Shown here: positions 5,619 to 21,491 of the stretch, piece after piece | Position numbering within the stretch: the first letter of the stretch is position 1 | Layout: every line of letters begins with the position of its first letter | Origin: Lysobacter soli | GTDB lineage: Bacteria > Pseudomonadota > Gammaproteobacteria > Xanthomonadales > Xanthomonadaceae | Direction of reading: 5' to 3' | NCBI RefSeq assembly: GCF_003382285.1 | Contig: NZ_QTJR01000017.1 | Span: 1 to 64,000 of the forward strand | DNA length: 64,000 nucleotides | Notes under the pieces: generated by a model | Databases searched by the model: none | Told to the model about the DNA's origin: nothing | The model's input: only the letters and a program-made list of their open reading frames with translations | Made by a program: the position numbers and the translations under genes

Positions 5619-5695
5619 TGGCGGCCCCGACACGATTCGAACGTGCGACCTGTCCCTTAGGAGGGGACCGCTCTATCCAGCTGAGCTACGGGGCC
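5619..5695 (-). tRNA. tRNA-Arg (anticodon CCT)
   Basis: Read on the minus strand, the 77-nt sequence folds as a full cloverleaf. The acceptor GGCCCCG/CGGGGCC is a perfect 7-bp stem. The D-arm is AGCTCAGCTGGATAGAGC, the anticodon stem GTCCC/GGGAC encloses loop CTCCTAA (anticodon CCT, reading AGG), the T-loop is TTCGAAT, and CCA is encoded. The ALDH gene follows 23 bases downstream. Confidence 0.97.
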
Positions 5696-5833: not shown

Positions 5834-7093
5834 TCAGCCGTCTTCGCCGAGGTCCGGATTCACCGGATCGTGCTGGCCCTTCGCCACTACCGTCGTCGCG
5901 GTGAGATCGCCGGTGACGTTGCCCAGCGTCGCGAAGACGTCCGGAATCGTGTCCAGCGCCAGCAGCAGGCCGAGCGGCTCGACCGGCAGGCCGAGCGCCT
6001 GCGTCACCGGCATGTTGGTCGCCATGAAGCTGACCTGGCCGGGCAGTCCCACGGAGCCCATGCTGATGACCACTGCCAGCGCCGCCGCGGCGGCCCATTG
6101 CGCGATGCTCAGGTCCACGCCGTAGGCCCACGCGATGAACGCCGCCACGCCCATGTACTGGATCGGGCTGGTGATGCGGAACAGCGACACCGCCATCGGC
6201 AGCACCAGCGAGGTCACGCTGAGCGGGTGGCCCAGGCGCTCGCGCGAGGATTCGATCATCGCCGGGAGCGATGCCAGCGAGGACTGCGTGCTGGCCGCGA
6301 CGACCTGCGCGGGCGCGATCGCCGCCGCGAAACGGCGCAGGCGCTCGCCGCCGGCGATGATCGCGATGGGGTACATCAGCGCTGTCGCCAGCAGGTACAT
6401 CGTGCAGAGGATGGCGATGTACCAGCCGAACGCGCCGATCATGCCGTGGCCCACGCGGGCGCACACGGCCAGCACCAGCGCGAACACGCCGATGGGCGCC
6501 ACCCACAGCACCCAGTGCACGATGACGATCATCACGTCGGCGATGCCCTGGATCAGTTCGAGCACGCGGGCGCGGCGGCCGGCCTCGATCCTGGTCAGGC
6601 CGAAGCCGAAGAACAGCGCGAACACCACCAGCGGCAGCATCGCGCTCGACGCCGCGGCGGCCAGTGCGTTGGCGGGGATGATCCCGGCGAACCATTCGGC
6701 CAGCGAGCTTGGCAGCGACAGTTGCGCCGCGCCGGCAGTGGCGGCTCGCAGCGATTCGGCCAAGCCCTCCTGTCGCGGCACGAACGAGAACAGGATGGGC
6801 GCCACCGTCGCGGCGAACGCGGCGCAGACGGCCAGGATCACCACGAAGGTGATGATCGCCTTGCGCGCGGTGCGGCCGGAAGCCGCGGCGTCCGTCGCGT
6901 TGTTCACGCCGATCACCACCAGCGCCGCGACCAGCGGCACCACGGTCATCTGCAGGGCGTTGAGCCAGAGGCGGCCGACCGGTTGCACGAAATCGGCGAC
7001 CTTGCCGGCCAGTACCGGGTCGATCCACGCGAGCGACAGGCCGATGGCGGCGCCGAGGAAGAGTCCGAGGAGTACGCGGGCGGTGTTCGACAT
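5834..7093 (-). CDS. Dicarboxylate/amino acid:cation symporter (DAACS family)
   Basis: A 419-residue secondary transporter of the DctA/GltP fold. Hydrophobic segments run through the protein. The diagnostic parts are the serine-containing re-entrant loop (SSLASLPAMIES, about residue 280), the MGSVGLPGQVSF segment, and the C-terminal substrate/cation site DTIPDVFATLGNVTGD. The ATG at 7093 is preferred over an upstream in-frame start because it places the first helix at the N terminus. It lies 80 bases downstream of the YkuD-type gene on the same strand and could be a late member of that operon. If so, import of glutamate, aspartate or dicarboxylates would fit the murein-peptide theme. That link is inference. 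Confidence 0.88.
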   Translation of the reverse strand: MSNTARVLLGLFLGAAIGLSLAWIDPVLAGKVADFVQPVGRLWLNALQMTVVPLVAALVVIGVNNATDAAASGRTARKAIITFVVILAVCAAFAATVAPILFSFVPRQEGLAESLRAATAGAAQLSLPSSLAEWFAGIIPANALAAAASSAMLPLVVFALFFGFGLTRIEAGRRARVLELIQGIADVMIVIVHWVLWVAPIGVFALVLAVCARVGHGMIGAFGWYIAILCTMYLLATALMYPIAIIAGGERLRRFAAAIAPAQVVAASTQSSLASLPAMIESSRERLGHPLSVTSLVLPMAVSLFRITSPIQYMGVAAFIAWAYGVDLSIAQWAAAAALAVVISMGSVGLPGQVSFMATNMPVTQALGLPVEPLGLLLALDTIPDVFATLGNVTGDLTATTVVAKGQHDPVNPDLGEDG

Positions 7094-7173: not shown

Positions 7174-7956
7174 TCAGTGCAGCGGCGTCGGCGCGGGGAG
7201 ATCCCACGCCGCATGCAGACGTTCCAGTTCGTTATCGGGCAATAACGCGAACACGGGTTTACGGCGCGGGTCGAGCCATGCCAGCAGCTCGCGCATCGCC
7301 GCTTCCGGCATCGCGGTGCAACCCGCCGTGGGCTCGCCCGGGGCGCGCCACAGGTGGGCGAAGATGCAGCTGCCCGCGCCGCTGCGGTTGCCCGGGTTGT
7401 GCTCGATCACGAAGCCGAGCTTGTAGCGGACGTCGCCGCCGGCGTGGAGGTCGCGGCGCATCGGCTCGCTCGACCCTTCGACGGCAGCGTCGCCAACCTG
7501 CCTGGCGTCGACGATGCGGTTGTAGAGCGGCGAGGCGGGCACGTCGATGCACCAGTCCGATGCGCTCATCCCCTGGTAGGGCCAGGCCGTCGAGGCCGTG
7601 TCGGCATAGCCGAAGGCCGTGCCGATGCGGAACACGCCCGCCGGCGCGCGACCGTCGCCTTCCTGTTTCTGCGGCGCGTCGGGTTGCGCGGGATGAAGCC
7701 CGACGCCCCACGCCGAACCGCTGCGGCCTACGGTAATCGGCGTCGGCTCGCCTGCTTCACGCCACTGACCGCCATGGCGCTCGTAGCGGCGCAGCGTGCC
7801 GGTCGTGGCGTTCCAGTCGGCGGTGGTGACCAGTACGAGTTGTTGCGCGTCCTTCCACGGCGTCGTCGCAACGGGCCCGGAGCCCAGGCCTGCGCAAGCC
7901 GTGAGTGCCGCGAGCGCGACGAGGGCGTAGCTGCGAACGAATGCCGCCATCTGCAT
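7174..7956 (-). CDS. L,D-transpeptidase (YkuD-fold) family protein, putative lipoprotein
   Basis: A 260-residue exported protein. The N terminus is hydrophobic and ends in LTACAG, a lipobox-like site. The C-terminal half has the YkuD signature: a distal H in IFAHLWRAPG and the nucleophile Cys in EPTAGCTAMP. It matches the YkuD variant in which the Cys follows TxGC(T/V), found in L,D-transpeptidases and related L,D-carboxypeptidase-like enzymes. Such proteins act on the L,D bonds of murein tetrapeptides. It is the last gene of a four-gene leftward operon, 13 bases after the rpiR-type gene. An ATG six bases further in (7950) is an alternative start. Confidence 0.8.
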   Translation of the reverse strand: MQMAAFVRSYALVALAALTACAGLGSGPVATTPWKDAQQLVLVTTADWNATTGTLRRYERHGGQWREAGEPTPITVGRSGSAWGVGLHPAQPDAPQKQEGDGRAPAGVFRIGTAFGYADTASTAWPYQGMSASDWCIDVPASPLYNRIVDARQVGDAAVEGSSEPMRRDLHAGGDVRYKLGFVIEHNPGNRSGAGSCIFAHLWRAPGEPTAGCTAMPEAAMRELLAWLDPRRKPVFALLPDNELERLHAAWDLPAPTPLH

Positions 7957-7969
7957 GAAGAACCCCGGA

Positions 7970-8821
7970 TCAGTGATCGAGCAGATCCTGCATGCGCTCG
8001 AAGTTGAAGTCGAGCTGGAGGCGGCGTTCCTCGCTCGCATCGCACAGCAGGACGAAGATGAGGTCGAGCAGGTGCTGCAGCGCGGATTGATACAGCAGCG
8101 GCTCGATGTGCCGTCGCTCGTCGTGCGCCGACACCAGCAGCGCGGCATCGCCATGCGCGCGCAGCGGATTGGGCGTGTGGCGCGTTACCGTGACGACACG
8201 CCCGACGCGCTCGCGGAAGAGATGGCTGATCTGGCACAGCGTCGGCTGCCGGCCGTGCTCGGAGAACACCATCAGCACATCGCCCGGCGCGGCGCTGGAA
8301 ACACCGGCCTGCATCAAAATCGCATCGACGTAGTGCACCGTGACGATGCCGAGCATCGACAGCCGCGTGGCGAACGCGCGCGCCGGGATGCCGTCCTCGC
8401 CCAGGCCGATGATGAAGACCTTGCCGGCCTGCAGTATCGCGTGCGCGATCGCGTCGATGTTCTCCGGCGGATTGATCAGGCGCGTTTCGGCCTCAGCCAG
8501 CGCCTTCAGGTGCCATAGGTCTTCGGCCAGCGCAGCGTGCGGATCGTCCGCGCGCGTTTCGCGACTGGTCCCGCCGTCGTCCGCGCCATCGCCGCGCGCG
8601 ACCGCTTGGCCGATCGAGTACTTGAGGTCCGGATAGCCCTTGAAACCAAGCTTCTGGCTGAACTTCACCACGCTCGACTGACTGATGCCCAGTGCATTGG
8701 CGAGCTGCTGCGACGAGTAGTCGCGCAGCAGGTGGGAGTTCTCGAGCAGGAAATCCGCGATGCGGCGTTCGATCGCCGACATCTGGTCGCGTTCGGAGCG
8801 GATCTTCAGCAGCGGCGACAT
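7970..8821 (-). CDS. MurR/RpiR-family transcriptional regulator
   Basis: A 283-residue regulator. The N-terminal HTH_6 domain (residues about 1-80) contains SSQQLANALGISQSSVVKFSQKLG, the standard RpiR helix-turn-helix. A SIS sugar-phosphate-binding domain follows (about 115-245; VFIIGLGEDG, DVLMVFSEHG). Family members sense phosphosugars, for example MurNAc-6-phosphate for MurR and glucosamine or hexose phosphates for others. Its place inside a murein-peptide operon, 24 bases after the dipeptide epimerase gene, suggests it controls this locus in response to a murein-derived ligand. The palindrome at 11602-11621 is a candidate target. Ligand and target are inferred. Confidence 0.9.
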   Translation of the reverse strand: MSPLLKIRSERDQMSAIERRIADFLLENSHLLRDYSSQQLANALGISQSSVVKFSQKLGFKGYPDLKYSIGQAVARGDGADDGGTSRETRADDPHAALAEDLWHLKALAEAETRLINPPENIDAIAHAILQAGKVFIIGLGEDGIPARAFATRLSMLGIVTVHYVDAILMQAGVSSAAPGDVLMVFSEHGRQPTLCQISHLFRERVGRVVTVTRHTPNPLRAHGDAALLVSAHDERRHIEPLLYQSALQHLLDLIFVLLCDASEERRLQLDFNFERMQDLLDH

Positions 8822-8845
8822 GCGGACTCCGGATCCGAAGGGACG

Positions 8846-9943
8846 TCAGTTTGGCAGCATTTCCAGCCCGCGGATCTCGCGGATGCCCAAGCCCGGCGCG
8901 TCGGTGACGGAGATCTCCGACTCGTTGAAGAGCACGCCCCCATCGACCGGGTTGAACGCAGAAAGCGAAGGTCCATCGAGGTCGACCTTGGTGATCGCAT
9001 TGGACTTCGCCACCGCCAAATGCACTGCCGCCGCCACGCTGATGCTGCTTTCGAGCATGCAGCCGATCATGCATTCCACTTCGTACAGCGCCGCTATGTC
9101 GGCGATACGGATCGCGTTCGACAGACCGCCGGTCTTCATCAGCTTGATGTTGATGATGTCCGCCGCGCGCATGCGGATGAGGTCGATCACTTCCTTCGGG
9201 CCGAACACGCTTTCGTCGGCCATGATCGGCGTGTGCACACGTTCGGTGACGTACTTCATGCCGTCCAGGTCCTGCGCCTTCACCGGTTGTTCCACCAGCT
9301 CCAGCCGCACGCCGGCGTCTTCGAGCATGTTGATCGCGTGCACGGCCTGCTTGGCGGTCCAGCCCTGGTTCGCGTCCAGGCGGAGCAGGGCGCGCCCTTC
9401 GACCGCGGCGTAGATGGCCTTCACGCGTTCGATGTCGACGCCGATGTCCTTGCCGACCTTGATCTTCAGCGACTCGAAACCGCGCTCCACCGCGCTGAGC
9501 GAATCGGCGACCATCTTCTCGATGTAGTCCACGCTGATGGTGATGTCGGTGGTGATCACCGGATCGCCGCCGCCGAGCATTTTGTACAGCGGCACGCCGT
9601 ACAGCTGGCCGAACAGGTCGTACACCGCGATTTCCACCGCCGCCTTCGCGCTGGTGTTCTTCTCCAGCGCGGTCTGGATCAGCTGCGTGATGCGGTTGAG
9701 GTTCGCGATTTCCTGGCCGATCAGGCGCGGTGCGATGAACTTGTTGATGGCCTCGACGATGGAGCCGTGCGTGTCGCCGGTGATGACCGCTGTCGCCGGC
9801 GCTTCGCCATAGCCGACGTGACCGGTGTCGGTATGCACGCAGACGATGATGTCCTCGATCGCCTCGACCGTGCGCAGCGCGGTCTTGAAAGGCGTTTTCA
9901 GCGGGACGCGCAACATGCCGAACCGGATCTGCGTGATCTTCAT
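8846..9943 (-). CDS. Dipeptide epimerase (L-Ala-D/L-Glu epimerase)
   Basis: A 365-residue enolase-superfamily enzyme. The catalytic set is complete: K160-x-K162 (acid/base), metal ligands D190, E218 and D243, and the second base K267 in INIKLMKTGG. These positions correspond to those of the Bacillus YkfB and E. coli YcjG epimerases. The reaction inverts D-Glu in L-Ala-D-Glu to give L-Ala-L-Glu, which ordinary dipeptidases can cut. It is cytoplasmic, with no signal peptide. It sits 46 bases downstream of an NlpC/P60 peptidase, repeating the Bacillus ykfB-ykfC pairing in which the peptidase releases L-Ala-D-Glu. Confidence 0.93.
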   Translation of the reverse strand: MKITQIRFGMLRVPLKTPFKTALRTVEAIEDIIVCVHTDTGHVGYGEAPATAVITGDTHGSIVEAINKFIAPRLIGQEIANLNRITQLIQTALEKNTSAKAAVEIAVYDLFGQLYGVPLYKMLGGGDPVITTDITISVDYIEKMVADSLSAVERGFESLKIKVGKDIGVDIERVKAIYAAVEGRALLRLDANQGWTAKQAVHAINMLEDAGVRLELVEQPVKAQDLDGMKYVTERVHTPIMADESVFGPKEVIDLIRMRAADIINIKLMKTGGLSNAIRIADIAALYEVECMIGCMLESSISVAAAVHLAVAKSNAITKVDLDGPSLSAFNPVDGGVLFNESEISVTDAPGLGIREIRGLEMLPN

Positions 9944-9989
9944 TCTTGTCGTTCTGGAATGTGGGGGCGGGTGTGCGGCGGATCGCGGC

Positions 9990-11390
9990 TTACGGCCGGA
10001 TGCGCTGGATGTTGGTGATGCGATCGACGAACGTCTGCTTGCCGTTGAACAGCAGCGGCGTGAGCGGCGAAACGGTGACGCCGTTGGTCTTCGCGCGAAC
10101 GGTCTGGCCGTCGGATCCGGCGAAACTGAGGCCGGTGGTGTCGTGGATGACGTACGGCTCGCCGTCGAGGTTGCCGATCACCATCATCACGTGGCCCGGG
10201 ATGTAGACCAGGTCGCCGACCTGCAGTTCGCGCACGATGGCCATCCGCTTGGCATGGCTGTCCTTCTCGTTGAACGCGATGCGGTTGAGTGCTGGACTGA
10301 CCGCCTGGTCGCTGGTGTTGCGCGGCAGCTGCACGCCCATGCTGCGGTAGATCTCGGAGACGAAGCCGCTGCAATCGCGCGCGTTGTAACTGTGGCCCCA
10401 GCCGTAGCGCTCGCCGAGGAACTTGAATCCTTGTTGGATCAGGTTGCGGGGCGTCAGCGCCAGCGGCGCGTCAGCCGTCGGTTCGCGACGCGGCAGCAGC
10501 GCGGGCGCGAATCTCAGCGAGCCATCGTCGTTGCGCACTGGCAGTTCGACGACGTGCGAGGTGTAGCCGTGCTGGCCGTTCACCGCCTTGCCGACAGGCC
10601 AGTCGGCGATGACCGGAACGCGCACGCCCATGTCGAGCTGGAGTTCGGAAACACCGGGTTCCTCGGGCGTGTACACGGTCGTCGCGCGCGCGCCGGTGAC
10701 GATGCGGAATGGGGTGCGCTTGCCATAGGCCAGCACGTCGTCGCGACGGCCTTCGGCGACCAAGCGTTTTTCTATCCACGCTGCATAACGCGTGTTGACC
10801 ACGAACAGCCACTGGCCGTCGCGGCTTTCGTGCACGATCGCCACCGGATCGCCCGGGAACAGGCCACTTTCCTGGAAGCGGTCGATATCGTGGTCGTCGT
10901 TGGAACTGAACACCCGTGTGCGCGTCGGGAACGTGCGCAGGTCGGCGCGATGCACGACCAGCCCGAAGCGCGTCGGCTGGGAGGCGGGAATCGCCGCGAG
11001 GTTGACGTTGTCGACGATTGCGTCCAGGTCCGCGTTCGCGGTCGTCCGGCCGCGCTCGTCGTAAAGCGTGCGCGTCGGGCGCTTCGACAAGCCTTCGATC
11101 CATGCCGCAACGCGGGCGCGGTCGAGCGACGCCGGCAGCGCGTCGAGATCGAACATGCTGTCGTCCAGCTGCATCAGCTTCGCGTTCTGCGCGGCGATGG
11201 CCTGCGCGTCGAGGATCACGCGATCCGGCTCGCTTTGCCGCGCGACCCACCACGACGGATCGAGCTGGGCCTGTTCGACACCGACGACGCCGGTATCGGC
11301 CGGAATGCTCCAGTTGCGCTCGTACGCGTGGGCCGAGGAAAGCAGGCCGATCGAGAGCAGCGATGCGAAGAGGACGGTGCGAAGGCGCAT
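9990..11390 (-). CDS. SH3-domain NlpC/P60 (C40) peptidase, exported
   Basis: A 466-residue protein with a cleavable signal peptide (about residues 1-23, ending SSAHA). It has an N-terminal stabilising region and SH3b-like domains (about 100-310), then a C-terminal NlpC/P60 domain with catalytic C340 (NARDCSGFVSEIY), H400 (GHVMMVIG) and H416 (VIHD). This architecture is that of the YkfC-like gamma-D-glutamyl-diamino-acid endopeptidases, which cut L-Ala-D-Glu from murein peptides. The ATG at 11390 was chosen because it starts the signal peptide; reading frame extends upstream to 11633 without one. It is the first gene of the leftward operon, transcribed from the AT-rich region near 11580-11606. 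Confidence 0.9.
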   Translation of the reverse strand: MRLRTVLFASLLSIGLLSSAHAYERNWSIPADTGVVGVEQAQLDPSWWVARQSEPDRVILDAQAIAAQNAKLMQLDDSMFDLDALPASLDRARVAAWIEGLSKRPTRTLYDERGRTTANADLDAIVDNVNLAAIPASQPTRFGLVVHRADLRTFPTRTRVFSSNDDHDIDRFQESGLFPGDPVAIVHESRDGQWLFVVNTRYAAWIEKRLVAEGRRDDVLAYGKRTPFRIVTGARATTVYTPEEPGVSELQLDMGVRVPVIADWPVGKAVNGQHGYTSHVVELPVRNDDGSLRFAPALLPRREPTADAPLALTPRNLIQQGFKFLGERYGWGHSYNARDCSGFVSEIYRSMGVQLPRNTSDQAVSPALNRIAFNEKDSHAKRMAIVRELQVGDLVYIPGHVMMVIGNLDGEPYVIHDTTGLSFAGSDGQTVRAKTNGVTVSPLTPLLFNGKQTFVDRITNIQRIRP

Positions 11391-11578
11391 GGAGCGGAAT
11401 CCGTGAACGGCCGGGCGAGGGCCTGCAGACAAGAGCGGGGCGGTGCCGGCGAGTTCCGGCATCGGGCTGGCGGAACGCGGCGCGACATGGGTCATATCGC
11501 GGCCGAAGGCCAGAGCGTCCTCGATCATCGCGTCCCCCTCATGAGCCGCCGTACGGGCAGCGGGCCGGTTCAGGAGAA

Positions 11579-11606
11579 TAGATACTTCATTCGATCTGAT
11601 AGTCAA
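11579..11606 (-). promoter_or_regulatory. Candidate sigma-70 promoter of the leftward NlpC/P60 operon
   Basis: On the minus strand, TTGACT (11606-11601) is followed after 16 bases by TATCTA (11584-11579). The -35 box matches the consensus at five of six positions; the -10 is weaker. It lies about 190 bases upstream of the chosen start of the NlpC/P60 gene, in the most AT-rich patch of the neighbourhood. Confidence 0.4.
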
Positions 11607-11621
11607 GAATAAATTATTGAC
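11602..11621. promoter_or_regulatory. Imperfect palindrome, candidate operator
   Basis: GTCAAGAATAAATTATTGAC pairs with its own reverse complement at 16 of 20 positions and overlaps the -35 box of the leftward promoter. AT-rich dyads of this size are typical targets of RpiR-family repressors. A second, longer-range inverted repeat, CACTCATG (11631-11638) with CATGAGTG (11662-11669), lies on the rightward side. The regulator encoded at 7970-8821 is the natural candidate to bind here. This is inference. Confidence 0.4.
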
Positions 11622-11708
11622 CGGGTACTCCACTCATGTTACACAGCGATGAAACGCCTCTCATGAGTGGCCCGCGTGGACGATCTTCGGTTACCGCTTC
11701 GATCGCCA

Positions 11709-13181
11709 ATGCCCCGGACGCGCCGCCGGCACGTCTTGCTCGCCGCCGTCCTTGCGCTGGGCGCGATCGCCGCGACCGATGCCGCTATTTCATCCACCGA
11801 TCCCTTGCCCGCGGTTGTCGCTGACATCGACGCGGGCGACTTCCGCGGCGCTACCTCGCAGATCGATGCGGCACTCGCGAAGGCGGGCATCGACGACAGG
11901 ACCCGCGCCGACCTCGAATTCCAGCGCGAGCGGATGCGCCGCATCCGGCTCGATTTCACGCTGTCCGCCGACCAGGCGCGCGCGAAGCTTCGCGACTCGA
12001 TTCCCGATCTACGCGAGGACGAATTCCAGCGCTGGACGAAGGCCAACCTGCTCGAGCACATGGTGATCGACGGAACGCCCTGGTACTTCAACCGTTCCGT
12101 GTCGAACCTGTTCCGCGTGAGCCCGGAGGCGATGGCGCGCCGCGCGACGCCGTTCCCGCGCAACGACGGGCCGATGGAGAACGCCAACGCCTACCACGAC
12201 GAGGCCGTCGCCGAGGCGAAGCGCACCGGGAAAAGCAGCGTCGCGCCACGACGCATCCACGTGACGCAATCGATCACGGTGAATGCCGATGCGGTGCCGG
12301 CAGGCGAGACGGTGCGTGCATGGATTCCGTATCCGCGCGCATTGCCGGGCCGGCAGGAAGACATCCGCTTCCTGTCGAGCGCGCCGGCGAAGCACCAGAT
12401 CGCGCCCGAGCCGACGCTGCAGCGCACCGTGTACCTCGAAAAACCGGCGGTGGCGGGACAGCCGACGACGTTCTCGATCGACTACGAACTGACGATCTTC
12501 GGCGAGCACCACGTCATTGATCCCGCCAAGGTGACGCCGCTCGGCGATCGTCCCGACCTCGCCCCGTACCTGGCGCAGCGCCCGCCGCACATCGTGTTCA
12601 CCGATGAAATGCGCGCGTTCTCGAAGAAGGTCGTCGGGGACGAAAAGAATCCGTATCGCATCGCGCAGAAGCTCTTCCAGGCGGTCGACGACATTCCCTG
12701 GGGCGGCGCGCGCGAATATTCGACGATCACCAACATCAGCGATTACGCGCTGCGCGGAAATCATGCCGACTGCGGCCAGCAGACATTGCTGCTGATGACG
12801 CTGCTGCGCCTGAACGGCATTCCGTCGCGCTGGCAGTCGGGCATGGTCTATTCCGACGGTACCTACGACAACCTGCACGACTGGGGCGCGCTGTACCTGG
12901 CGCCGTACGGCTGGGTGCCGATGGACGTGACGACCGGCCAGTTCAAGGGCGCGCGCGATCCGGAAGTGGAGTGGTTCTACCTCGGCGGCCTGGATGCCTA
13001 CCGGATCGCCTTCAACGACGACATCAGCACGGACTTCGTGCCGGCCAAGCAGCACGTCCGGTCGGAGACCGTGGATTCGCAACGCGGCGAAGTGGAGTGG
13101 GCAGGGGGCAACCTCTACTTCGACCAGTGGGATTACAGCTTTGCAGCAAAGGTACTGCCCGCCGGCGGGACGTCGCGCTAG
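11709..13181 (+). CDS. Transglutaminase-like domain protein, exported
   Basis: A 490-residue protein with an N-terminal signal segment (RRRHVLLAAVLALGAIAA), an N-terminal domain of unknown type, and a C-terminal transglutaminase-like core. The papain-type triad is visible: C355 in HADCGQQTLL, H390 in NLHDWGALYL and D406 in PMDVTTG. Bacterial members act as proteases, amidases or cross-linkers in the envelope; the substrate is not known. The ATG at 11709 was preferred to the GTG at 11667 because the signal peptide follows it directly. First gene of the rightward set, ending 35 bases before the TonB receptor. A role in trimming murein peptides is suggested only by context. Confidence 0.82.
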   Translation: MPRTRRRHVLLAAVLALGAIAATDAAISSTDPLPAVVADIDAGDFRGATSQIDAALAKAGIDDRTRADLEFQRERMRRIRLDFTLSADQARAKLRDSIPDLREDEFQRWTKANLLEHMVIDGTPWYFNRSVSNLFRVSPEAMARRATPFPRNDGPMENANAYHDEAVAEAKRTGKSSVAPRRIHVTQSITVNADAVPAGETVRAWIPYPRALPGRQEDIRFLSSAPAKHQIAPEPTLQRTVYLEKPAVAGQPTTFSIDYELTIFGEHHVIDPAKVTPLGDRPDLAPYLAQRPPHIVFTDEMRAFSKKVVGDEKNPYRIAQKLFQAVDDIPWGGAREYSTITNISDYALRGNHADCGQQTLLLMTLLRLNGIPSRWQSGMVYSDGTYDNLHDWGALYLAPYGWVPMDVTTGQFKGARDPEVEWFYLGGLDAYRIAFNDDISTDFVPAKQHVRSETVDSQRGEVEWAGGNLYFDQWDYSFAAKVLPAGGTSR

Positions 13182-13216
13182 CGCGTCGCGCATCACCTTC
13201 ACCGTGGAGAGGGGAC

Positions 13217-16123
13217 ATGAAGAGCATGGGGTTTCGTAGGACCGCGTTGTGCATGGCGTTGGGCGTCTGCCTGACGTCGGCGTTGTCGTTGAATCAGGCG
13301 CACGCCGCCAACACGGACGGTTCGCTGGTCGGTCGCACCGCGCCGAACGCCGAAGTCACGGTGCGCAATCCGGCCACCGGGTTCGTGCGCACGGTGCGCG
13401 CGGACGATTCGGGCAATTACCGCTTTCCGTTCCTCCCGGTGGGCGAATACCAGGTCGAAGTGGTCGCTGACGGACAGGCGCTGTCGCAACCGGCGCAGAC
13501 GACCATCAGCCTGGGCAACGCGACGACGCTGAACATCGCCGCCGGCGGCTCGGCGACTGACCTGGCGGCGGTGCAGGTGATCGGCTCGCGCGTCGTGTCC
13601 GCGGTCGACGTGACCTCGACCGAGATCGCGACCAACATTAGCCGCGAGGAAGTGGCGCGGTTGCCGGTGCAGCGCGACATCATCGACGTGGCGACGCTCG
13701 CACCGGGCGTGAATCGCGGCGAGTTCGGCGGCATCTCGTTCGGCGGTTCGTCGGTGGCGGAGAACACCGTCTACATCAACGGCCTGAACGTCACCGACTT
13801 CTACAACCGCGTCGGCTTCTCTTCGTTGCCGTTCTCGTTCCTGGAGGAGTTCCAGATCAAGACCGGCGGTTATTCGGTGGAATACGGCCGCAGCACGGGC
13901 GGCGTGATCAACGCCGTGACGCGTCGCGGCACGAACGAGTTCCACGCCGGCGCCGACATCGTGATCGACGGCCTGTGGCAGGGCAACGGCCGGAACTACG
14001 CGCCGACGCTCTACACGCGCTGGGACGATTCCGACGAGAACAACTATTCCGTCTGGGGCTCGGGCGCGCTGATCAAGGACCGCCTGTTCTTCTTCGGCAT
14101 CTATGAGAAGCGCGACCTCGACTCGCAGAACACCGACGATGGCGGCGGAAACTTCTTCGAGAACCACGGCGACAACGACTTCTGGGGCGCGAAGGTCGAC
14201 TGGCAGATCAACGACGCCAACCTGCTGGAAGTGTTCGGCTTCTCCGACAAGAACGACACCACGCAGGACGTGTTCGGTTTCGATGCGGACGCCGGCACGC
14301 GCGGCGACTTCCGCAACCGCATCATCAACAAGACCGGTGGCGACAACTGGGCCGCGACGTACACCGGCTACTTCACCGACACGTTCTCGATGAAGGCGAT
14401 GTACGGCGAAAACGAGCGCTCGGCCTCGGCGATCGGCGTCAACGACGACCGCTGCAGCCTCGTGCAGGACCAGCGCGTCAACACCTCCTTCATCGGCTGC
14501 ACCAGCAACACCTCGGTGATCGACCGCACCGACACGCGCGAGGCGATGCGCCTTGATTTCGAGTGGAACCTGGGCGACCACCTGCTGCGTTTCGGCGCCG
14601 ACCACGAGAACAACACGTCCGACTACAGCAGCCGCTATCCGGGCGACGGACTGCGTTACGAAGTGAACAATGCCGGCGCGCGCGTCAACGGCGTGACGGT
14701 GCCCGCGGGCACCGTGTACGTCCGCACGCGCCAGGTCGCCAACCAGGGCACGTTCGAGACCGAGAACGAGGCCTACTACATCGAGGACAACTGGAACGTC
14801 ACGCCGAACCTGCTGCTGAACCTCGGCGTGCGCATCGAGAGCTTCGACAACAAGGACGCGGCGGGCAACAGCTACATCAAGCTCAACGACATGATCGCGC
14901 CGCGCTTCGGGTTCTCGTGGGATCTGAACGGCGATGGCCGCTCGAAGGTGTTCGGCAACGCCGGCCGTTACTTCCTGCCGGTGGCGAACGTCATCAACAT
15001 CAAGCAGGCCGGTCCGTTCCTCGACGCCCGCCGGTTCTACTTCTGGGACGGCACCTTCGCCTCTGGCGACAACCCGATCCCGGGCCTGGGCGCGGAGATC
15101 GGTACCGTCGACGATTCGCAGGGCGACGGCAGCGTGGCCGACTTCCGCGGCGAGGTCGACAAGGACATGGATCCGGTCTACCAGGACGAGTTCATCCTCG
15201 GCTTCCAGCAGATGCTGGGCGAGAAGTGGTCGTGGGGCGTGAGCGGCACCTATCGCAAGATGCACAACGCGATCGACGACATGGAAGTGGTCAACAGCTG
15301 TGGCGACAGCGGCTTCGTGATGGCCAATCCGGGCAAGGACCTGACCTACTACACGGACACCGACTGCGACGGCGAAAGCGATGGCTTCGTCACCATCGAC
15401 ACCTCGCAGACGGGTTGGGAACTGCGCGACGGCACGATGATCGGCTGGGAAAACCCGAAGCGCACCTATCGCGCCATCGAACTGCAGCTCGACCGCGCAT
15501 GGGACGACAAGTGGGCATTCAACGCGACCTATGTCTGGTCGATGAGCAAGGGCAACTATGAGGGCCCGGTGAATTCGGACACCGACTTCGCCGACTCCGG
15601 CCGCACCGAGGCCTTCGACAATCCGTTCGTCGAGATTGGCGGTTACGGCTACCTGCCCAACGACCATCGTCATCAGATCAAGCTGCGCGGCAACTACGCC
15701 ATCACCGACAACTGGACCATCGGCGCCACGCTGGATGCGGCGTCGGGTCGCCCGATGAGCGAGTACGGCGCGGGTAACCCGTACGACGACAACGAGTTCC
15801 TGACGCACTACATCTGCGAAAGCGATCCGAGCCTGTGCTACACCGACCAGGGCCAGTGGCGCCTGTCGCGTCGCGGTGCGTACGACACGCTGCCGTGGAC
15901 GTACAACCTCGGCCTCAGCGTGGCCTACAACACCACGCTCGGCCCGGTGAAGCTCAACGCCAAGTTCGCCGTCTACAACGTGCTCAACGAGCAGACGGTG
16001 ATCGAGCGCAACGAAACGCTGCAGGAAGAGGAGGGCGTGGGCCTGATGAATCCGTTCTTCGGCAACCCGACCGCGTTCCAGGCACCGCGCAACGCGCAGT
16101 TCATCCTGTCGCTGAGCTATTGA
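13217..16123 (+). CDS. TonB-dependent outer-membrane receptor with carboxypeptidase-regulatory-like domain
   Basis: A 968-residue receptor with a signal peptide (about 1-31, cut after NQAHA). An N-terminal carboxypeptidase-regulatory-like beta domain (about 33-110; AEVTVRNPATG, GNYRFPFLPVGEY) is followed by a plug domain (about 125-245; ENTVYINGLNV, EYGRSTGGVINAVTRRG) and a long beta-barrel with alternating aromatic strands. It ends with an aromatic Tyr, as expected for barrel insertion by Bam. A GAGAGGGG ribosome site precedes the ATG. Oar-like receptors with this extra domain take up peptides or glycans. Its neighbours suggest murein fragments as cargo, but that is inference. Confidence 0.92.
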   Translation: MKSMGFRRTALCMALGVCLTSALSLNQAHAANTDGSLVGRTAPNAEVTVRNPATGFVRTVRADDSGNYRFPFLPVGEYQVEVVADGQALSQPAQTTISLGNATTLNIAAGGSATDLAAVQVIGSRVVSAVDVTSTEIATNISREEVARLPVQRDIIDVATLAPGVNRGEFGGISFGGSSVAENTVYINGLNVTDFYNRVGFSSLPFSFLEEFQIKTGGYSVEYGRSTGGVINAVTRRGTNEFHAGADIVIDGLWQGNGRNYAPTLYTRWDDSDENNYSVWGSGALIKDRLFFFGIYEKRDLDSQNTDDGGGNFFENHGDNDFWGAKVDWQINDANLLEVFGFSDKNDTTQDVFGFDADAGTRGDFRNRIINKTGGDNWAATYTGYFTDTFSMKAMYGENERSASAIGVNDDRCSLVQDQRVNTSFIGCTSNTSVIDRTDTREAMRLDFEWNLGDHLLRFGADHENNTSDYSSRYPGDGLRYEVNNAGARVNGVTVPAGTVYVRTRQVANQGTFETENEAYYIEDNWNVTPNLLLNLGVRIESFDNKDAAGNSYIKLNDMIAPRFGFSWDLNGDGRSKVFGNAGRYFLPVANVINIKQAGPFLDARRFYFWDGTFASGDNPIPGLGAEIGTVDDSQGDGSVADFRGEVDKDMDPVYQDEFILGFQQMLGEKWSWGVSGTYRKMHNAIDDMEVVNSCGDSGFVMANPGKDLTYYTDTDCDGESDGFVTIDTSQTGWELRDGTMIGWENPKRTYRAIELQLDRAWDDKWAFNATYVWSMSKGNYEGPVNSDTDFADSGRTEAFDNPFVEIGGYGYLPNDHRHQIKLRGNYAITDNWTIGATLDAASGRPMSEYGAGNPYDDNEFLTHYICESDPSLCYTDQGQWRLSRRGAYDTLPWTYNLGLSVAYNTTLGPVKLNAKFAVYNVLNEQTVIERNETLQEEEGVGLMNPFFGNPTAFQAPRNAQFILSLSY

Positions 16124-16134
16124 TGTCCCTCGAG

Positions 16135-16170
16135 CGGCGGGCGGCCTTGTGCCGTCCGCCGTCTTTTTTT
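16135..16170 (+). terminator. Intrinsic terminator after the TonB receptor
   Basis: An 11-bp GC-rich stem (16135-16145 with 16151-16161, one G-T pair), a 5-base loop, then TC and seven T (16164-16170). It lies 12 bases after the receptor stop and 22 bases before the chosen lysA start, so it should limit read-through into lysA. Confidence 0.85.
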
Positions 16171-16191
16171 GGCCTACGCAAGGGTCCTGCC

Positions 16192-17433
16192 TTGTCGAAC
16201 TTCCTTCCGGGCGAGCTGGACGCGATCGCGCGCCAGATCCAGACACCGTTCTACGCCTATTCGGCGCAGATGATCCGTGACCGCATCGCGAGCCTGCACG
16301 GCGCTTTCCGCGGGCTCGACGTACGCATCTGCTATGCCGTCAAGGCCAACTCGAACATCGCGATACTCCAGCTGATGGCGCAGCACGGCGTCGGCGCGGA
16401 CATCGTGTCGCTCGGCGAGATGCAGCGCAGTTTGAAGGCCGGCATTCCCGCCGAACGCATCGTGTTTTCCGGCGTCGGCAAGACGGCCGACGAGATCGAC
16501 GCCGCACTTTCGGCCGGCGTGTGGCGGTTCAACGTCGAGTCGGCCGACGAACTGCATCTTCTGCAGCACAGGGCACAGTCGCGCGGCGTGTGCGCGCGGG
16601 CAGCCGTACGTATCAATCCGGACGTCGATGCCCGCACGCACGCGAAGATCTCGACCGGCAAGGCCGAGAACAAGTTCGGCGTGTCCATCGACGAGGCCCG
16701 GCGGTGGTTCGCCGAATGCGCCGCGCTCGATCACGTGCAGCTGGACGGGCTGCACGCGCATATCGGTTCGCAGATCCTCGATCTCGAACCATTCCGGCAG
16801 GCGCTGCAGCGGGTGGAAGCGTTTCGCCGCGAACTGGTGCAGTCGGGCCATGCGATCGCGAGTGTCGACATCGGCGGCGGCCTGGGCGTCACGTATCGCC
16901 CCGGCGGCGACATGCCCGTGGACATCGCCGATTACGCATCGCTGGTGCGCGCAACGTTCGCCGGCTTCAAGGGCACGCTGGCACTGGAGCCCGGGCGCTG
17001 GCTCGTCGCCGAAGCGGGCGTGCTGGTGACGCGGGCGATCCGGGTGAAGCACGGCACCGATCGCCAATTCCTCGTCGTCGATGCCGCGATGAACGATCTG
17101 CTTCGTCCCTCGCTATACGATGCGTGGCACGAGATCGTGCCGATGCACGGCCGCAACGAGCCGGACGTCGCCTACGACGTGGTCGGCCCGGTGTGCGAGA
17201 CCGGCGACACCTTCGCCCAGGGACGGGTGCTGGCGCGCTGCGAGGCGGGCGACCTGTTGATGATCGCCGGTGCCGGCGCGTACGGTGCGTCGATGGGGTC
17301 CACCTACAATTCCCGGCCGCTGCCGCCGGAAGTGCTGCTCGACGACGGCCGCTACGCCATCATCAGGCGGCGCCAGACGATCACGGAGATGATGGCCGGT
17401 GAACAGTTCCCGCAGGCATGGCATGAGACCTGA
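16192..17433 (+). CDS. lysA: Diaminopimelate decarboxylase (stand-alone LysA)
   Basis: A 413-residue PLP enzyme of fold type III that converts meso-diaminopimelate to L-lysine. It shows the PLP lysine K51 in YAVKANSN, HIGSQI (residues about 189-194), the glycine-rich phosphate site DIGGGLG, EPGR, and the active-site Cys C335 in GPVCETGDT. The chosen start is TTG at 16192, after the terminator and an AGGG ribosome site. An in-frame ATG at 16123 overlaps the receptor stop and would add 23 residues read through the terminator hairpin. Xanthomonads usually carry an aspartokinase-DAP decarboxylase fusion for biosynthesis, so this separate copy next to murein-peptide genes may serve DAP salvage. 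That role is inference. Confidence 0.9.
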   Translation: MSNFLPGELDAIARQIQTPFYAYSAQMIRDRIASLHGAFRGLDVRICYAVKANSNIAILQLMAQHGVGADIVSLGEMQRSLKAGIPAERIVFSGVGKTADEIDAALSAGVWRFNVESADELHLLQHRAQSRGVCARAAVRINPDVDARTHAKISTGKAENKFGVSIDEARRWFAECAALDHVQLDGLHAHIGSQILDLEPFRQALQRVEAFRRELVQSGHAIASVDIGGGLGVTYRPGGDMPVDIADYASLVRATFAGFKGTLALEPGRWLVAEAGVLVTRAIRVKHGTDRQFLVVDAAMNDLLRPSLYDAWHEIVPMHGRNEPDVAYDVVGPVCETGDTFAQGRVLARCEAGDLLMIAGAGAYGASMGSTYNSRPLPPEVLLDDGRYAIIRRRQTITEMMAGEQFPQAWHET

Positions 17434-18982
17434 CCGCATCCTCGCCATCGCGTTCTCGCTATGCGTGGCATGGCTACCTGGCTCGGGCGCTGCGGCGGAA
17501 GCGCCGGCCGACCGGAAGGCCGTGGACGCGATTTTCGACGAGGTGTTCTCGCGATACCACTTGCCTGGACTGGCGCTGGGCATCGTCGAGGACGGACGCG
17601 TCGTGTATTCGCGCACCGCGGGCGAACTCGTGGAAGGCGAGGGCGACAGGATCGACTCGAAGACGCTCTTCAAGGTCGCGTCGAATACCAAGTCGATGAC
17701 GACCGCCACGCTCGCGCGACTGGTCGACGCCGGCAAACTGCGTTGGGACGATCCGGTGACCCGATGGATCCCGGACTTCCGCATGCACGACGCGTGGGTC
17801 GGCCGCGAGATGCAGGTGCGCGACCTGTTGATCCACAACAGCGGCCTGCGCGCGGGCGCCGGCGATCTGATGCTGTGGCCCGAACCGAACACGTTCACGC
17901 GCGCGGACATCATCCACGGGCTCGGCTATCTGGAGCCGTATCGCAGCTTCCGCTCGGGCTACGACTACGACAACCTGATGTACATCGTTGCGGGCGAAGT
18001 AGCCGCGGCGGCAGGTGGCTCGCCGTACGAGGCGCTCGTGCGGCGCGAAGTGTTCGAGCCCCTCGGCATGACACGCTGTCAGGTGGGGCAGTGGAGTCGC
18101 ATCGAAGTCGGCAACGTCGCGCAGCCGCACCGGCGCGAAGGCGGACGCAATGTGCCCGTGCGCAGCGACGGCGACATCATCCCTGCGACCACGATGGACC
18201 CGGCCGGCGGCGTGCGGTGCAGCCTCGACGACATGCTGCGCTGGACCGCGAACTGGCTGAAGCCGGACGCGAAGAATGAAGCGTGGCTTTCGCAGGAACA
18301 ACGCCAGGCGCTGTGGGCGCCGCAGATGCCGATGCCGGTATCGAAACGCATGCGTGAATGGGATCGCAGCCATTTTTCCGCGTACGGCTACGGCTGGCGG
18401 CTCGCCGACGTGGACGGCGTGTTCAAGGTCGCGCACACAGGCACGCTGATGGGCATGTATTCGGCGGTGACGATGCTGCCCGACAAGGGCGCGGGCTTCG
18501 TCATCCTGATCAATGGCGAAGGCGAGGACGCACGCACCGTGCTGACGCAGGTGCTGGTGAAGCGCTACACGTCCGGCGCCCCGGCGCTGTCGGTCGCGCA
18601 TTACGCGGGCCTCATCGACAAGGAGGACGCCGCACGCCCGGTCAGCGAACAGGCGCCGGATACCTCACGTCGTCGCCGAGCGACCGTGAAGGAGCTTTCG
18701 CCGAAACTGGGCACGTATCGCGACCCGTGGTTCGGCGAGGCGACGCTGTGCCGCGACAGCGATGCGGTTCGTTTCCGCGCGAGCAAGTCGCCCCTGCTGG
18801 ATGGCGTCGTGCAGCGCGTCGGCAAGCGTTGGCTCATCGACTGGGGCGATCCTAGCGTCGACGCCGAAGCCTGGCTCGATCTCGACGGCAGTGGCATGCG
18901 GCTGGCAAAGGTCGATCCGCAGGCCGATTTCAGCTACGACTACGAAGACCTGGCGTTCGAACGCGTGGGAGCGTGCCCCTGA
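17423..18982 (+). CDS. Serine hydrolase, class C beta-lactamase/DD-peptidase fold, with DUF3471-like C-terminal domain
   Basis: A 519-residue exported protein. The signal peptide ends near GSGAAAEA. The beta-lactamase-type domain shows S87-x-x-K90 (ASNTKS), a YDYDN motif (Tyr general base) and HTG in KVAHTGTL. A C-terminal domain (about 425-519) resembles the DUF3471/lipocalin-like appendix found on D-aminopeptidases and EstB-like esterases. The gene overlaps lysA by 11 bases and the following VanX-type gene by one, so the three are translationally coupled. A D-amino-acid-releasing peptidase would fit, but esterase or beta-lactamase activity cannot be excluded. Confidence 0.85.
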   Translation: MRPDRILAIAFSLCVAWLPGSGAAAEAPADRKAVDAIFDEVFSRYHLPGLALGIVEDGRVVYSRTAGELVEGEGDRIDSKTLFKVASNTKSMTTATLARLVDAGKLRWDDPVTRWIPDFRMHDAWVGREMQVRDLLIHNSGLRAGAGDLMLWPEPNTFTRADIIHGLGYLEPYRSFRSGYDYDNLMYIVAGEVAAAAGGSPYEALVRREVFEPLGMTRCQVGQWSRIEVGNVAQPHRREGGRNVPVRSDGDIIPATTMDPAGGVRCSLDDMLRWTANWLKPDAKNEAWLSQEQRQALWAPQMPMPVSKRMREWDRSHFSAYGYGWRLADVDGVFKVAHTGTLMGMYSAVTMLPDKGAGFVILINGEGEDARTVLTQVLVKRYTSGAPALSVAHYAGLIDKEDAARPVSEQAPDTSRRRRATVKELSPKLGTYRDPWFGEATLCRDSDAVRFRASKSPLLDGVVQRVGKRWLIDWGDPSVDAEAWLDLDGSGMRLAKVDPQADFSYDYEDLAFERVGACP

Positions 18983-19692
18983 TGCGGTCGCTGGCGCACG
19001 TCGTGTCCGCACTTTGCCTGCTCGCGTTCGCAGGTTGCGCAACGCGCGCGCGGATGGATGTTTCGCCGGCAACGACGCCGGATTCAGCAGGTCTTGTCGA
19101 TATCCGCACGCTCGTCCCCGACATCGACCTCGATATCCGCTATGCCGGACGGAACAACTTCACCGGCGCGATCGTGGACGGCTACGGCGCGCCTCGTTGT
19201 TATCTGCTGGAACCGGCGGCGAAAGCGATCCAGCGCGCCGAAACCGCGCTGCGTTCGCAGGGTTATCGCCTTCGCATCTTCGACTGCTATCGGCCCGCGC
19301 GTGCGGTGCGTGCGTTCGTCGCGTGGGCCAACAATCCCGACGAAAGCACGAAGGCGCGCTTCTATCCCGCACTGGACAAGCGCGCATTGCTGGGCGAGTA
19401 CATCTCGCCGACGTCCGGCCACAGCCGTGGCGCGACGATCGACCTGACGCTGATGCGTTGCGGCGCTCCAAGTTCATGTGCGCCGCTGGACATGGGCACC
19501 GATTTCGACTTCTTCGATACGCTCGCCAACACCGATTCGCCGCGCGTCACGCCGGAACAGCGGGCCAATCGCGATCGCCTGCGCGACGCGATGCGGCAGG
19601 CGGGGCTGCGCAACTATCCGATGGAATGGTGGCACTTCACGCTCGACCCCGAACCCGCACCGAAGACCTTCTTCGACGTGCCGATCGAGTGA
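18982..19692 (+). CDS. D-alanyl-D-alanine dipeptidase (VanX/DdpX family), lipoprotein
   Basis: A 236-residue zinc dipeptidase that splits D-Ala-D-Ala. It has a lipoprotein signal (LLAFAGC, Cys20). The metal and catalytic residues are complete: H147 and D154 in SGHSRGATIDLTL, E215 (catalytic) and H218 in EWWH, and an Arg in CYRPARAVRAF corresponding to the transition-state Arg of VanX. The ATG overlaps the preceding stop as TGATG. As a lipoprotein it should act in the periplasm, on D-Ala-D-Ala released from murein pentapeptides. This is therefore a catabolic enzyme. No vanHA-type ligase or sensor genes are nearby, so vancomycin resistance is not indicated. Confidence 0.92.
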   Translation: MRSLAHVVSALCLLAFAGCATRARMDVSPATTPDSAGLVDIRTLVPDIDLDIRYAGRNNFTGAIVDGYGAPRCYLLEPAAKAIQRAETALRSQGYRLRIFDCYRPARAVRAFVAWANNPDESTKARFYPALDKRALLGEYISPTSGHSRGATIDLTLMRCGAPSSCAPLDMGTDFDFFDTLANTDSPRVTPEQRANRDRLRDAMRQAGLRNYPMEWWHFTLDPEPAPKTFFDVPIE

Positions 19693-19696
19693 GTGC

Positions 19697-20758
19697 TCAG
19701 TTCGTCGCGGCCTCGCGCATCGCCAGCGCGCCGATCTTCTTCGCCGTCTCGTAAGGCTCCGGATCGTCGCGATTGGTGAGCACCACGACGGTCAGGTGGC
19801 GTTTCGGCCAGCGCACGATCACGTTGCGGAAGCCGATGGTTTCGCCCGAATGCCAGAGCGTTTCGCCGGTGATTCGCCATCCGAAGCCGTATTCGACCTG
19901 CGGATCGTCCGTCGGCGTGGCGGGCGTGAACGCCTGGCGCAGCACGCTCGACGGCAGCAGCCGCTCGTCGTAGAGGGCGGCGTCCCACTTGCTCAGGTCA
20001 TCGAGGGACGAATAGATGCCGCCATCGCCAAGCACGGCGCTGGTGGTGCTCTGGTCGGTGCGCATCCACGCCCCGTTCTCCAGGCTGTAACCGTAGGCGC
20101 GATTCGGCACCTCGGAGACGCCGGCCTCGTACGCGACCGTGTCGTTCATTCCCAGCGGCTGGAAGATGCGGTCGTGCAGGAATCGCGCGTAACGCTGCGC
20201 GGAGGCGCGTTCGACAATCTGCGCGAGCAGCGCATAACCGCTGTTGCTGTAGCGGTATCCGGTGCCGGGCGCGAAGTAGGTGCGGTCCTGCGACTGCAGG
20301 AGCGTGAGCACGTCGGCGTCGTGCACCTGCCGCGTGTCGGCGGGATCCATCACGTCTTCGTAATCGATCAGGCCGGAGGTGTGCGTGAGCAGGTGGCGGA
20401 TCGTGATGCCGTCCGCTGCGGCAGGCAGGCCGGGCAGGTAGCGCTTGATCGAATCGTCGAGTTTCAGCCGACCGTCCTCGACGAGCAGCAGCACCGAAGC
20501 GGCAGTGAATTGCTTGCTCACCGACGCGAGGCGGTAATTCGTCTGCGGCGAGGCTTCGACGTGTCGTTCCAGATCCGCCATGCCATACGAGCGGCGCACG
20601 AGCGGCTGGCCGTCGCGTACGACGAGCACGCTGGCGCCGGGTACGTCGCCCTGGTAGTCGCGCATCAGCGCGTCGATTTCGTGCTGCATTCGCGTCCCTC
20701 CGCTCGCGCAACCGGCGAGGAGCAGGACGGCGCCCGTGAGCCAGTGATGTATGCGCAT
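19697..20758 (-). CDS. Serine hydrolase, class C beta-lactamase/DD-peptidase fold, lipoprotein
   Basis: A 353-residue putative lipoprotein (signal ends LLLAGC, Cys17) with S79-x-x-K82 (ASVSKQF), YSN in YRYSNSGYA and HSG in LWHSGETIG. These are the three motifs of AmpC/DD-peptidase-like hydrolases. The ATG at 20758 starts the lipoprotein signal, and upstream in-frame sequence is ignored for that reason. It converges with the VanX-type gene, four bases apart. It is the second such hydrolase in the murein-peptide region. The substrate is unknown. Confidence 0.85.
   Translation of the reverse strand: MRIHHWLTGAVLLLAGCASGGTRMQHEIDALMRDYQGDVPGASVLVVRDGQPLVRRSYGMADLERHVEASPQTNYRLASVSKQFTAASVLLLVEDGRLKLDDSIKRYLPGLPAAADGITIRHLLTHTSGLIDYEDVMDPADTRQVHDADVLTLLQSQDRTYFAPGTGYRYSNSGYALLAQIVERASAQRYARFLHDRIFQPLGMNDTVAYEAGVSEVPNRAYGYSLENGAWMRTDQSTTSAVLGDGGIYSSLDDLSKWDAALYDERLLPSSVLRQAFTPATPTDDPQVEYGFGWRITGETLWHSGETIGFRNVIVRWPKRHLTVVVLTNRDDPEPYETAKKIGALAMREAATN

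Positions 20759-21415: not shown

Positions 21416-21491
<76 letters not shown>

Follow-up and report, generated by a model that had tools for sequence, protein, structure and literature searches.

A conserved divergent gene cluster of Lysobacter and its relatives that probably imports and catabolises murein stem peptides

Introduction

Does a divergent gene cluster of a Lysobacter-like bacterium form a dedicated, regulated route for the uptake and breakdown of murein (peptidoglycan) peptides? The cluster lies in the window analysed here, a stretch of 64,000 nucleotides (contig NZ_QTJR01000017.1, positions 1 to 64,000) from a genome of 3.95 Mb in 27 contigs that is 99.99% complete. Known murein recycling routes rely on porins, AmpG or Opp. 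A first-pass annotation had read nine adjacent genes of this window as a possible murein-peptide scavenging pathway, perhaps feeding a bacteriolytic lineage on lysed prey. Pfam and NCBIfam scans confirmed all nine genes at their positions on two divergent arms. A gene for a DAACS-family symporter, downstream of the YkuD gene and outside the annotated coordinates, is also part of the conserved cluster. The minus arm thus runs from NlpC/P60 through epimerase, RpiR and YkuD-fold protein to the DAACS symporter, and the plus arm from the transglutaminase-like protein through TonB receptor, LysA and serine hydrolase to VanX. From the transglutaminase-like gene to VanX, the junctions are a gap of 35 bp followed by overlaps of 1, 11 and 10 bp. 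We consider, with a probability of about 0.7, that this is a co-regulated locus importing and catabolising murein stem-peptide fragments. Peptide catabolism is kept from the initial proposal as the best explanation, and its YkfC-like, MurR-type and bacteriolytic components are rejected or weakened.

Conservation of the locus

Of 465 named loci with a gene for a relative of the epimerase, we compared the best 80, and counted a gene as present where the window protein mapped at 40% identity or more. The epimerase is present in all 80 by construction, since it served to select the loci. The RpiR gene is also found in 80 loci, NlpC/P60 in 79, YkuD in 73, the transglutaminase-like gene in 72, the TonB receptor in 69 (43-93% identity), the DAACS symporter in 61 (59-95% identity), the serine hydrolase in 54, LysA in 33 and VanX in 28. 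Several loci are interrupted by contig ends, so that the last three counts are lower bounds, and two records of metagenome-assembled genomes (L082 and L084) have the same sequence over the compared stretch, so that one locus is counted twice. NlpC/P60, epimerase and RpiR occur together in 79 of the 80 loci, and these three with both the transglutaminase-like protein and the TonB receptor in 66. By gene calling and clustering, each of the families counted as non-cluster was found in at most 13 loci. The grouping of the cluster genes is more than chance: this neighbourhood comparison, which the first-pass annotation had named as a way to overturn its proposal, showed the genes to be kept together. 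With the caveat that the loci were chosen by it, the epimerase is the best-conserved gene of the locus (82-98% identity), and the window copy shares 98% identity with the Lysobacter changpingensis enzyme.

The locus occurs in Lysobacteraceae, Rhodanobacteraceae and Steroidobacteraceae, among others in Rhodanobacter, Dyella, Luteibacter, Dokdonella, Pseudoxanthomonas and Steroidobacter, the last with a different gene order. Lysobacter enzymogenes (L031) is one of the carriers. Among 369 class-wide genomes an RpiR orthologue (E 1e-60) was found in only 4, all from the family of the window. The system therefore looks narrow in distribution, though the Steroidobacter loci show that the class-wide sample is incomplete. 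A system specific to bacteriolysis was rejected because the locus is present in many other genera; the suggested link to prey nutrients is weak, the locus being common in genera not known as bacteriolytic.

The variable positions of the locus were explored by calling and clustering the genes of all loci and naming family representatives via Pfam and NCBIfam, ten of them in one Pfam run. A DUF819 membrane protein lies between the arms in 38 of the 80 loci (for example at 7404-8561 of locus L010). An M19 dipeptidase was found in 23 loci, and was called together with VanX in only 2. A flavin adenine dinucleotide-dependent oxidase of the DAO fold is present in 21 loci, a DadA-like dehydrogenase in 5, an alternative TonB receptor family in 10 and an APC permease family in 7, 6 of which are without DAACS. 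An Amidase_2 protein occurs in 13 loci, with a hydrophobic or lipobox N terminus in 10 of them by a rough rule. A second serine hydrolase follows VanX in the window; members of its family were called close to where the plus arm ends in a further 14 loci, on one strand or the other, and the family was counted as associated. At least one accessory enzyme (VanX, M19, LysA, Amidase_2, D-amino-acid-type oxidases or serine hydrolase) is present in 74 of the 80 loci. Walking along the arms with gaps of up to 250 bp, we assigned 569 of 611 called genes to named families; the remaining 42 are mostly at the outer ends. The named genes of variable position are D-amino-acid or murein-peptide enzymes or transporters, and their activities are those needed for peptides of D-alanine, D-glutamate and diaminopimelate.

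In two loci, those of Lysobacter daejeonensis (L011) and L. ruishenii (L016), neither the transglutaminase gene nor the TonB gene was found beside the regulator; a different TonB receptor, a serine hydrolase and an Amidase_2 gene follow the symporter there.

The inter-arm element and its regulator

The region between the arms contains a two-box element, GAATAgaTacTTC-N18-GAATAAATTATTGAC, in which both boxes are GAATA-type. The second, core box overlaps a TTGACC hexamer located 17 bp ahead of a conserved TACACA, the whole spanning 11576-11645 and giving a candidate promoter for the plus arm. This pair was not listed by our consensus scan, which accepts a second hexamer only if it ends in T. The scan proposed for the minus arm GTAACA - 18 - AATAAT, which overlaps the same box (1 found against 0.1 in shuffles). 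Alignment of 71 inter-arm regions, comprising the window and the loci with both genes called within 800 bp, showed the shared element in 69 of them and a diverged form in L063 and L066. A strict two-box pattern with a gap of 15-22 bp allowed was matched in 62 of the 80 named loci, always at 46 bp; widening the allowed gap to 5-40 bp left these matches unchanged. The starts of the boxes are thus 31 bp apart, about three helical turns. The strict pattern had no match in 100 shuffles of the window.

The core box alone is present in 74 of the 80 loci and, with up to one mismatch, occurs a single time in the whole genome of the window. Among 299 genomes of the order, 91 have the core box and 89 an RpiR orthologue (E 1e-50 or better): 86 have both, 5 the box only, 3 RpiR only and 205 neither. 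Box and RpiR gene are 2.1-4.8 kb apart in 84 of the 86 genomes and on separate contigs in the other two. As the genomes are related, Fisher's test on these counts overstates their independence; the fixed spacing and the single occurrence are less exposed to this inflation than the co-occurrence statistic. The five box-only matches are probably due to chance, in keeping with the 4 of 299 genomes matched by the reversed box pattern, since neither a strict first box within 45 bp nor, in the fetched stretch, any cluster gene was found there. One of the three RpiR-only genomes carries a one-base variant of the box, and the fetched stretch of the other two has none.

Six Pseudoxanthomonas loci have an extra core box ahead of another TonB receptor, without a strict first box. 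L069 and L075, each with a single site, likewise have no strict first box, so nothing can be concluded from its lack alone. An amidase controlled by its own copy of the box in Pseudoxanthomonas was rejected: the extra copy instead precedes the other TonB receptor, 357-451 bp ahead of its called start, and in L074 the main element is followed first by the amidase gene. Taken together, these patterns suggest that the locus is probably co-regulated, with RpiR as the putative binder of the element; as far as sequence can tell, the shared element supports the co-regulation that the initial annotation had left to be checked.

The regulator belongs to the RpiR family, with HTH_6 (78.6 bits) and SIS (45.8 bits) domains, but the first-pass label "MurR-type" is doubtful: the protein is only distantly MurR-like, reaching 79 bits against a cut-off of 408 for the NCBIfam MurR model. 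The best RpiR-type NCBIfam model, PRK11557, gave 153 bits for a cut-off of 355. RpiR proteins usually bind phosphosugars via Ser/Thr residues of their SIS domain. In the solved relative 8TXL the two SIS motifs read GTGSSG and FSLSGST, against GLGEDG and FSEHGRQ in the window. Across the loci (residue counts here and below include the window and cover called proteins of at least 70% of the length of the window protein), all 80 proteins have Asp143, at a position that is Ser in the solved relatives of the alignment. Position 189, also Ser in solved relatives, is never Ser (50 His, 15 Phe, 10 Gln and 5 other), and position 192 is Ser or Thr in none of the 80 proteins. Of the second motif, the leading Ser (S187) persists in 77 of 80. 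Glu188, which is not at a Ser of solved relatives, and Arg214 are invariant (80/80). Phosphosugar sensing of the MurR type was rejected, or at least weakened, by the missed cut-off and the loss of most SIS Ser/Thr residues. Our hypothesis is that the charged SIS pocket would suit a peptide or an amino acid better than a phosphate.

Enzymes and transporters of the cluster

The closest solved relatives of the NlpC/P60 protein, which has an N-terminal signal sequence, are DvLysin (3M1U) and PnpA (6SQX), both distant (phmmer E 1e-24 and 4e-14). Its catalytic Cys340, His400 and His416 are conserved in 78 of 78 proteins. In Bacillus cereus YkfC the defining residue Asp256 is described as holding the free amine at the N terminus of L-Ala (PMC2954226). 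The corresponding residue is Asn358 in all 78 proteins, the PRDS of BcYkfC aligning to PRNT. Tyr202 of the SH3 part is equally invariant (78/78); the printed match to 3H41 spans the catalytic part only, so that this residue was not equated with Tyr118, conserved in the SH3b domain of YkfC. The name "YkfC-like" given at first pass was thus abandoned, and on sequence grounds the endopeptidase groups with the lysin-type NlpC/P60 enzymes.

The epimerase, in contrast, was correctly described as having a full active site. It is closest to the Bacillus subtilis L-Ala-D/L-Glu epimerase AEE (1JPM/1TKK, E 1.6e-100), and ten checked residues are invariant in 81 of 81 proteins, including R24, K160, K162, D190, E218, D243, K267, D321 and D323 in the alignment to 1JPM. 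We take these to be the catalytic KxK and Lys, the three metal carboxylates, the DxD and Arg24 of AEE. The protein missed the E. coli-type epimerase model PRK15129 (109.5 against 343 bits). A second enolase-superfamily racemase, DgcA-like (347 bits for a cut-off of 400), is encoded in the genome of the window at 1468-2517 of locus L004, which lies at about 36-39 kb of contig C24. It is flanked by a POT peptide transporter and by a gene whose C-terminal part is serine-hydrolase-like by eye, with no NCBIfam match; this region is possibly a second route for D-Glu dipeptides.

The YkuD-fold lipoprotein has 260 residues, with YkuD as the only domain found by Pfam and no accessory domain. It shows the fold and the catalytic Cys and His, and the top structural matches of its model include the LD-carboxypeptidases Csd6, Pgp2 and Bd1075. 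The D-Ala pocket of Csd6 contains, in the published description, two aromatic residues, Tyr132/133 (both numbers published) and Trp158. An invariant Phe199 (72/72) precedes the catalytic His of the lipoprotein by two residues. Going by Csd6 numbering, we presume that Phe199 occupies the position of Trp158. A search of the genome confined to the S66 family of LD-carboxypeptidases found no Peptidase_S66 match. Given this result and a model that comes closest to LD-carboxypeptidases, we regard the YkuD-fold lipoprotein as the best candidate for the LD-carboxypeptidase that had seemed to be missing.

The stand-alone diaminopimelate decarboxylase passes its equivalog cut-off, in keeping with the earlier assignment. 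It was rejected as the sole enzyme of this type, since a second, biosynthetic aspartokinase-LysA fusion is encoded elsewhere in the genome (1352 bits, cut-off 802). The VanX-type dipeptidase also stands: it has the M15 fold, aligns to VanX 1R44 (E 2e-39), and keeps H150, D157, E218, H221 and R107 in 28 of 28 proteins, which we take to be the zinc ligands and catalytic residues of 1R44. The transglutaminase-core protein may act as a peptidase or amidase on murein fragments.

The TonB receptor of the window is 93% identical to that of L006 and only 51-52% to those of L007-L009, where the other cluster genes are 75-97% identical. This gap suggests an exchange of the receptor gene among close relatives.

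For passage across the inner membrane the cluster offers candidates only, as in the first reading: judging from sequence, DAACS here and APC or DUF819 in relatives. The DUF819 protein is likely a transporter, for which the neighbourhood supplies a candidate substrate; the DUF819 protein encoded in the genome of the window was rejected as the cluster transporter, being only 28% identical to the L010 type. AmpG and four POT-type loci are present elsewhere in the genome.

Features of the window

The coordinates of the cluster are collected in Table 1. On its DAACS side the cluster is closely bordered by a tRNA-Arg gene (5619-5695). A tRNA-Ala gene is found at 21416-21491, and a 610-residue open reading frame with an FGE-sulfatase (formylglycine-generating) domain is located downstream of the cluster, at 22857-24689.

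Table 1. Genes and regulatory features of the cluster in the window; gene coordinates use in-frame starts chosen in this analysis.
Feature	Coordinates	Strand	Evidence
DAACS-family symporter (GltP/DctA-like), candidate inner-membrane importer	5834..7093	-	NCBIfam GltP 146 bits, cut-off 638
YkuD-fold lipoprotein, proposed LD-carboxypeptidase	7174..7956	-	Pfam YkuD domain
RpiR-family regulator, SIS phosphate site altered	7970..8821	-	Pfam HTH_6 and SIS above cut-off
L-Ala-D/L-Glu epimerase-like enolase-superfamily enzyme, cytoplasmic	8846..9943	-	Nearest solved chain 1JPM/1TKK
Exported NlpC/P60 gamma-D-Glu-diamino-acid endopeptidase, SH3_6 domain, DvLysin/PnpA-like	9990..11390	-	Pfam; signal sequence
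Two-box regulatory element, proposed RpiR operator	11576..11621	+	Strict pattern in 62/80 loci
Possible minus-arm promoter GTAACA - 18 - AATAAT	11613..11642	-	Consensus scan
Proposed plus-arm promoter TTGACC - 17 - TACACA	11617..11645	+	Conserved in 69/71 intergenic alignments
Exported transglutaminase-core protein, proposed peptidase/amidase on murein fragments	11709..13181	+	Pfam/NCBIfam scans
TonB-dependent outer-membrane receptor, N-terminal CarboxypepD_reg	13217..16123	+	Pfam CarboxypepD_reg, Plug, beta-barrel
Stand-alone diaminopimelate decarboxylase LysA, cytoplasmic	16123..17433	+	TIGR01048 463 bits, equivalog cut-off 297.9
Exported serine hydrolase (Beta-lactamase fold), possible DD-peptidase	17423..18982	+	Pfam Beta-lactamase 196 bits
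VanX-type D-Ala-D-Ala dipeptidase, lipoprotein-like N terminus	18973..19692	+	Pfam M15
Second serine hydrolase, convergent, possibly associated	19697..20758	-	Pfam Beta-lactamase 248 bits

Discussion

The linkage of the genes in 80 loci, the accessory enzymes, the element tied to RpiR, the epimerase residues, the duplicate LysA, the further core box ahead of another TonB receptor in Pseudoxanthomonas and the likeness of the YkuD model to LD-carboxypeptidases, in a genome without a Peptidase_S66 match, all argue for a locus devoted to murein stem peptides. In the mechanism that we propose, the TonB receptor would carry the fragments across the outer membrane, where they would be cut by the exported NlpC/P60 endopeptidase, the serine hydrolase, VanX or M19, the YkuD-fold protein acting as an LD-carboxypeptidase and the transglutaminase-fold peptidase, joined in some relatives by a lipoprotein amidase. 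This extracytoplasmic cutting would yield L-Ala-D-Glu, meso-diaminopimelate and D-Ala, which could enter the cell through the cluster symporter (DAACS, APC or DUF819 according to the lineage) or a POT transporter encoded elsewhere. In the cytoplasm, the epimerase would convert L-Ala-D-Glu into L-Ala-L-Glu and the extra LysA would convert meso-diaminopimelate into L-lysine. RpiR, bound to the two-box element, may repress both arms until an inducer is present. A more specific version is tentative, and we give it somewhat less than even chances: TonB-dependent import would feed a periplasmic disassembly line, and the SIS domain of the RpiR repressor would have lost its phosphosugar in favour of a peptide or an amino acid (such as L-Ala-D-Glu or meso-diaminopimelate), the repressor acting through a two-box operator in a fixed 31-bp register.

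Several observations weigh against a murein-peptide locus. The activities of all members are predicted and the cargo of the TonB receptor is putative. Family models support some assignments poorly: the epimerase is below the cut-off of the NCBIfam equivalog NF041118 (262 against 500 bits), a model whose name suggests the Thermotoga-type enzyme; the best NCBIfam match of the serine hydrolase, AmpH, gave 87 bits for a cut-off of 266; the VanX-type enzyme missed the NCBIfam VanX cut-off (175.5 against 320 bits); and the YkuD match by Foldseek alone was weak, with no E < 0.001. The search for other LD-carboxypeptidases was confined to Peptidase_S66. LysA and VanX, found in only 33 and 28 loci, are not essential to the system. 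The cluster of the window has no amidase that would free the stem peptide from N-acetylmuramic acid, Amidase_2 genes lying elsewhere. No SBP_bac_5 protein was found in the whole genome by a search that was positive in 11 of 14 control genomes, so that an Opp/Dpp/MppA route is not in sight. Finally, the extra boxes ahead of the other TonB receptor in Pseudoxanthomonas lack the strict first box.

The strongest alternative is that the locus recycles the cell's own murein turnover, the TonB receptor only recovering fragments lost to the medium. AmpG is the usual start of murein recycling, and its presence in the genome, like that of the conserved set in genera not known as predators, fits this idea. 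We nevertheless regard it as unlikely, without being negligible: the TonB receptor of 69 loci, together with another that has its own core box in six, points outward, a two-box element of its own is in keeping with use under certain conditions, and the redundant LysA and the D-amino-acid-type oxidases of relatives point to catabolism, not to reuse in wall synthesis. It is less probable still that the main substrates are other peptides with D-residues or gamma-glutamyl bonds, such as peptide antibiotics or poly-gamma-glutamate. Dipeptide epimerases and serine hydrolases are indeed broad families, the TonB receptor diverges strongly among near relatives and the transglutaminase fold leaves the substrate unfixed, yet a diaminopimelate decarboxylase, a VanX-type enzyme, an LD-carboxypeptidase-like fold and the Amidase_2/AmpD-type amidases of relatives best fit murein chemistry. 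A role in wall remodelling or cell shape through the LD-carboxypeptidase and endopeptidase, with the metabolic genes as passengers, is suggested by the ties to cell shape of Pgp2, Csd6 and Bd1075, the solved structures closest in fold to the YkuD protein, but is very improbable because the best-conserved gene, with the reservation on locus choice given above, encodes an epimerase, for which we know of no remodelling role, and because a symporter and a TonB receptor fit it poorly.

If our reading of the locus as a murein-peptide importing and catabolic system is correct, these soil bacteria would possess a dedicated and regulated route to eat wall peptides, with its own outer-membrane receptor. 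The transglutaminase-fold protein, the DUF819 transporter and the YkuD-fold lipoprotein would then have testable roles, and an RpiR regulator may sense peptides. With the element at hand, the regulon can be searched for across hundreds of genomes.

Comparison with known systems

As far as our searches reach, the enzyme types of the cluster are known, while their assembly, the element and the altered regulator are undescribed in the literature. The adjacency of the epimerase and NlpC/P60 genes (79 of 80 loci) is shared with Bacillus ykfABCD and B. cereus ykfBC, as is, in the case of B. cereus, an endopeptidase with a signal peptide beside an epimerase without one (PMC2954226). In contrast to Bacillus ykf, the endopeptidase is here of the lysin type, with Asn in place of Asp256; the locus has a TonB receptor, LysA, VanX, YkuD and transglutaminase proteins and an RpiR regulator; and the Lysobacter genome is devoid of an SBP_bac_5 binding protein of the Opp/Dpp type. 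PnpA, which with DvLysin is the closest, if distant, solved sequence relative of the endopeptidase, is secreted and was proposed to help against competitors or in nutrient gain; the excerpted text mentions no epimerase or TonB receptor with these enzymes (PMC7860986). The YkuD-fold protein shares its fold and catalytic Cys and His with Csd6, Pgp2 and Bd1075, but it is a lipoprotein without an accessory domain by Pfam. The M15 fold and the checked metal-site residues are those of VanX and E. coli DdpX, from which the cluster enzyme differs by scores below both NCBIfam cut-offs, a lipoprotein-like N terminus and its murein-type cluster. The Caulobacter clusters for recycling of N-acetylglucosamine (GlcNAc) and peptidoglycan likewise combine a TonB receptor with their own genes for degrading wall components; they handle the sugar GlcNAc via a phosphotransferase system and NagA/B, whereas the cluster described here would handle the peptides (PMC13046382).

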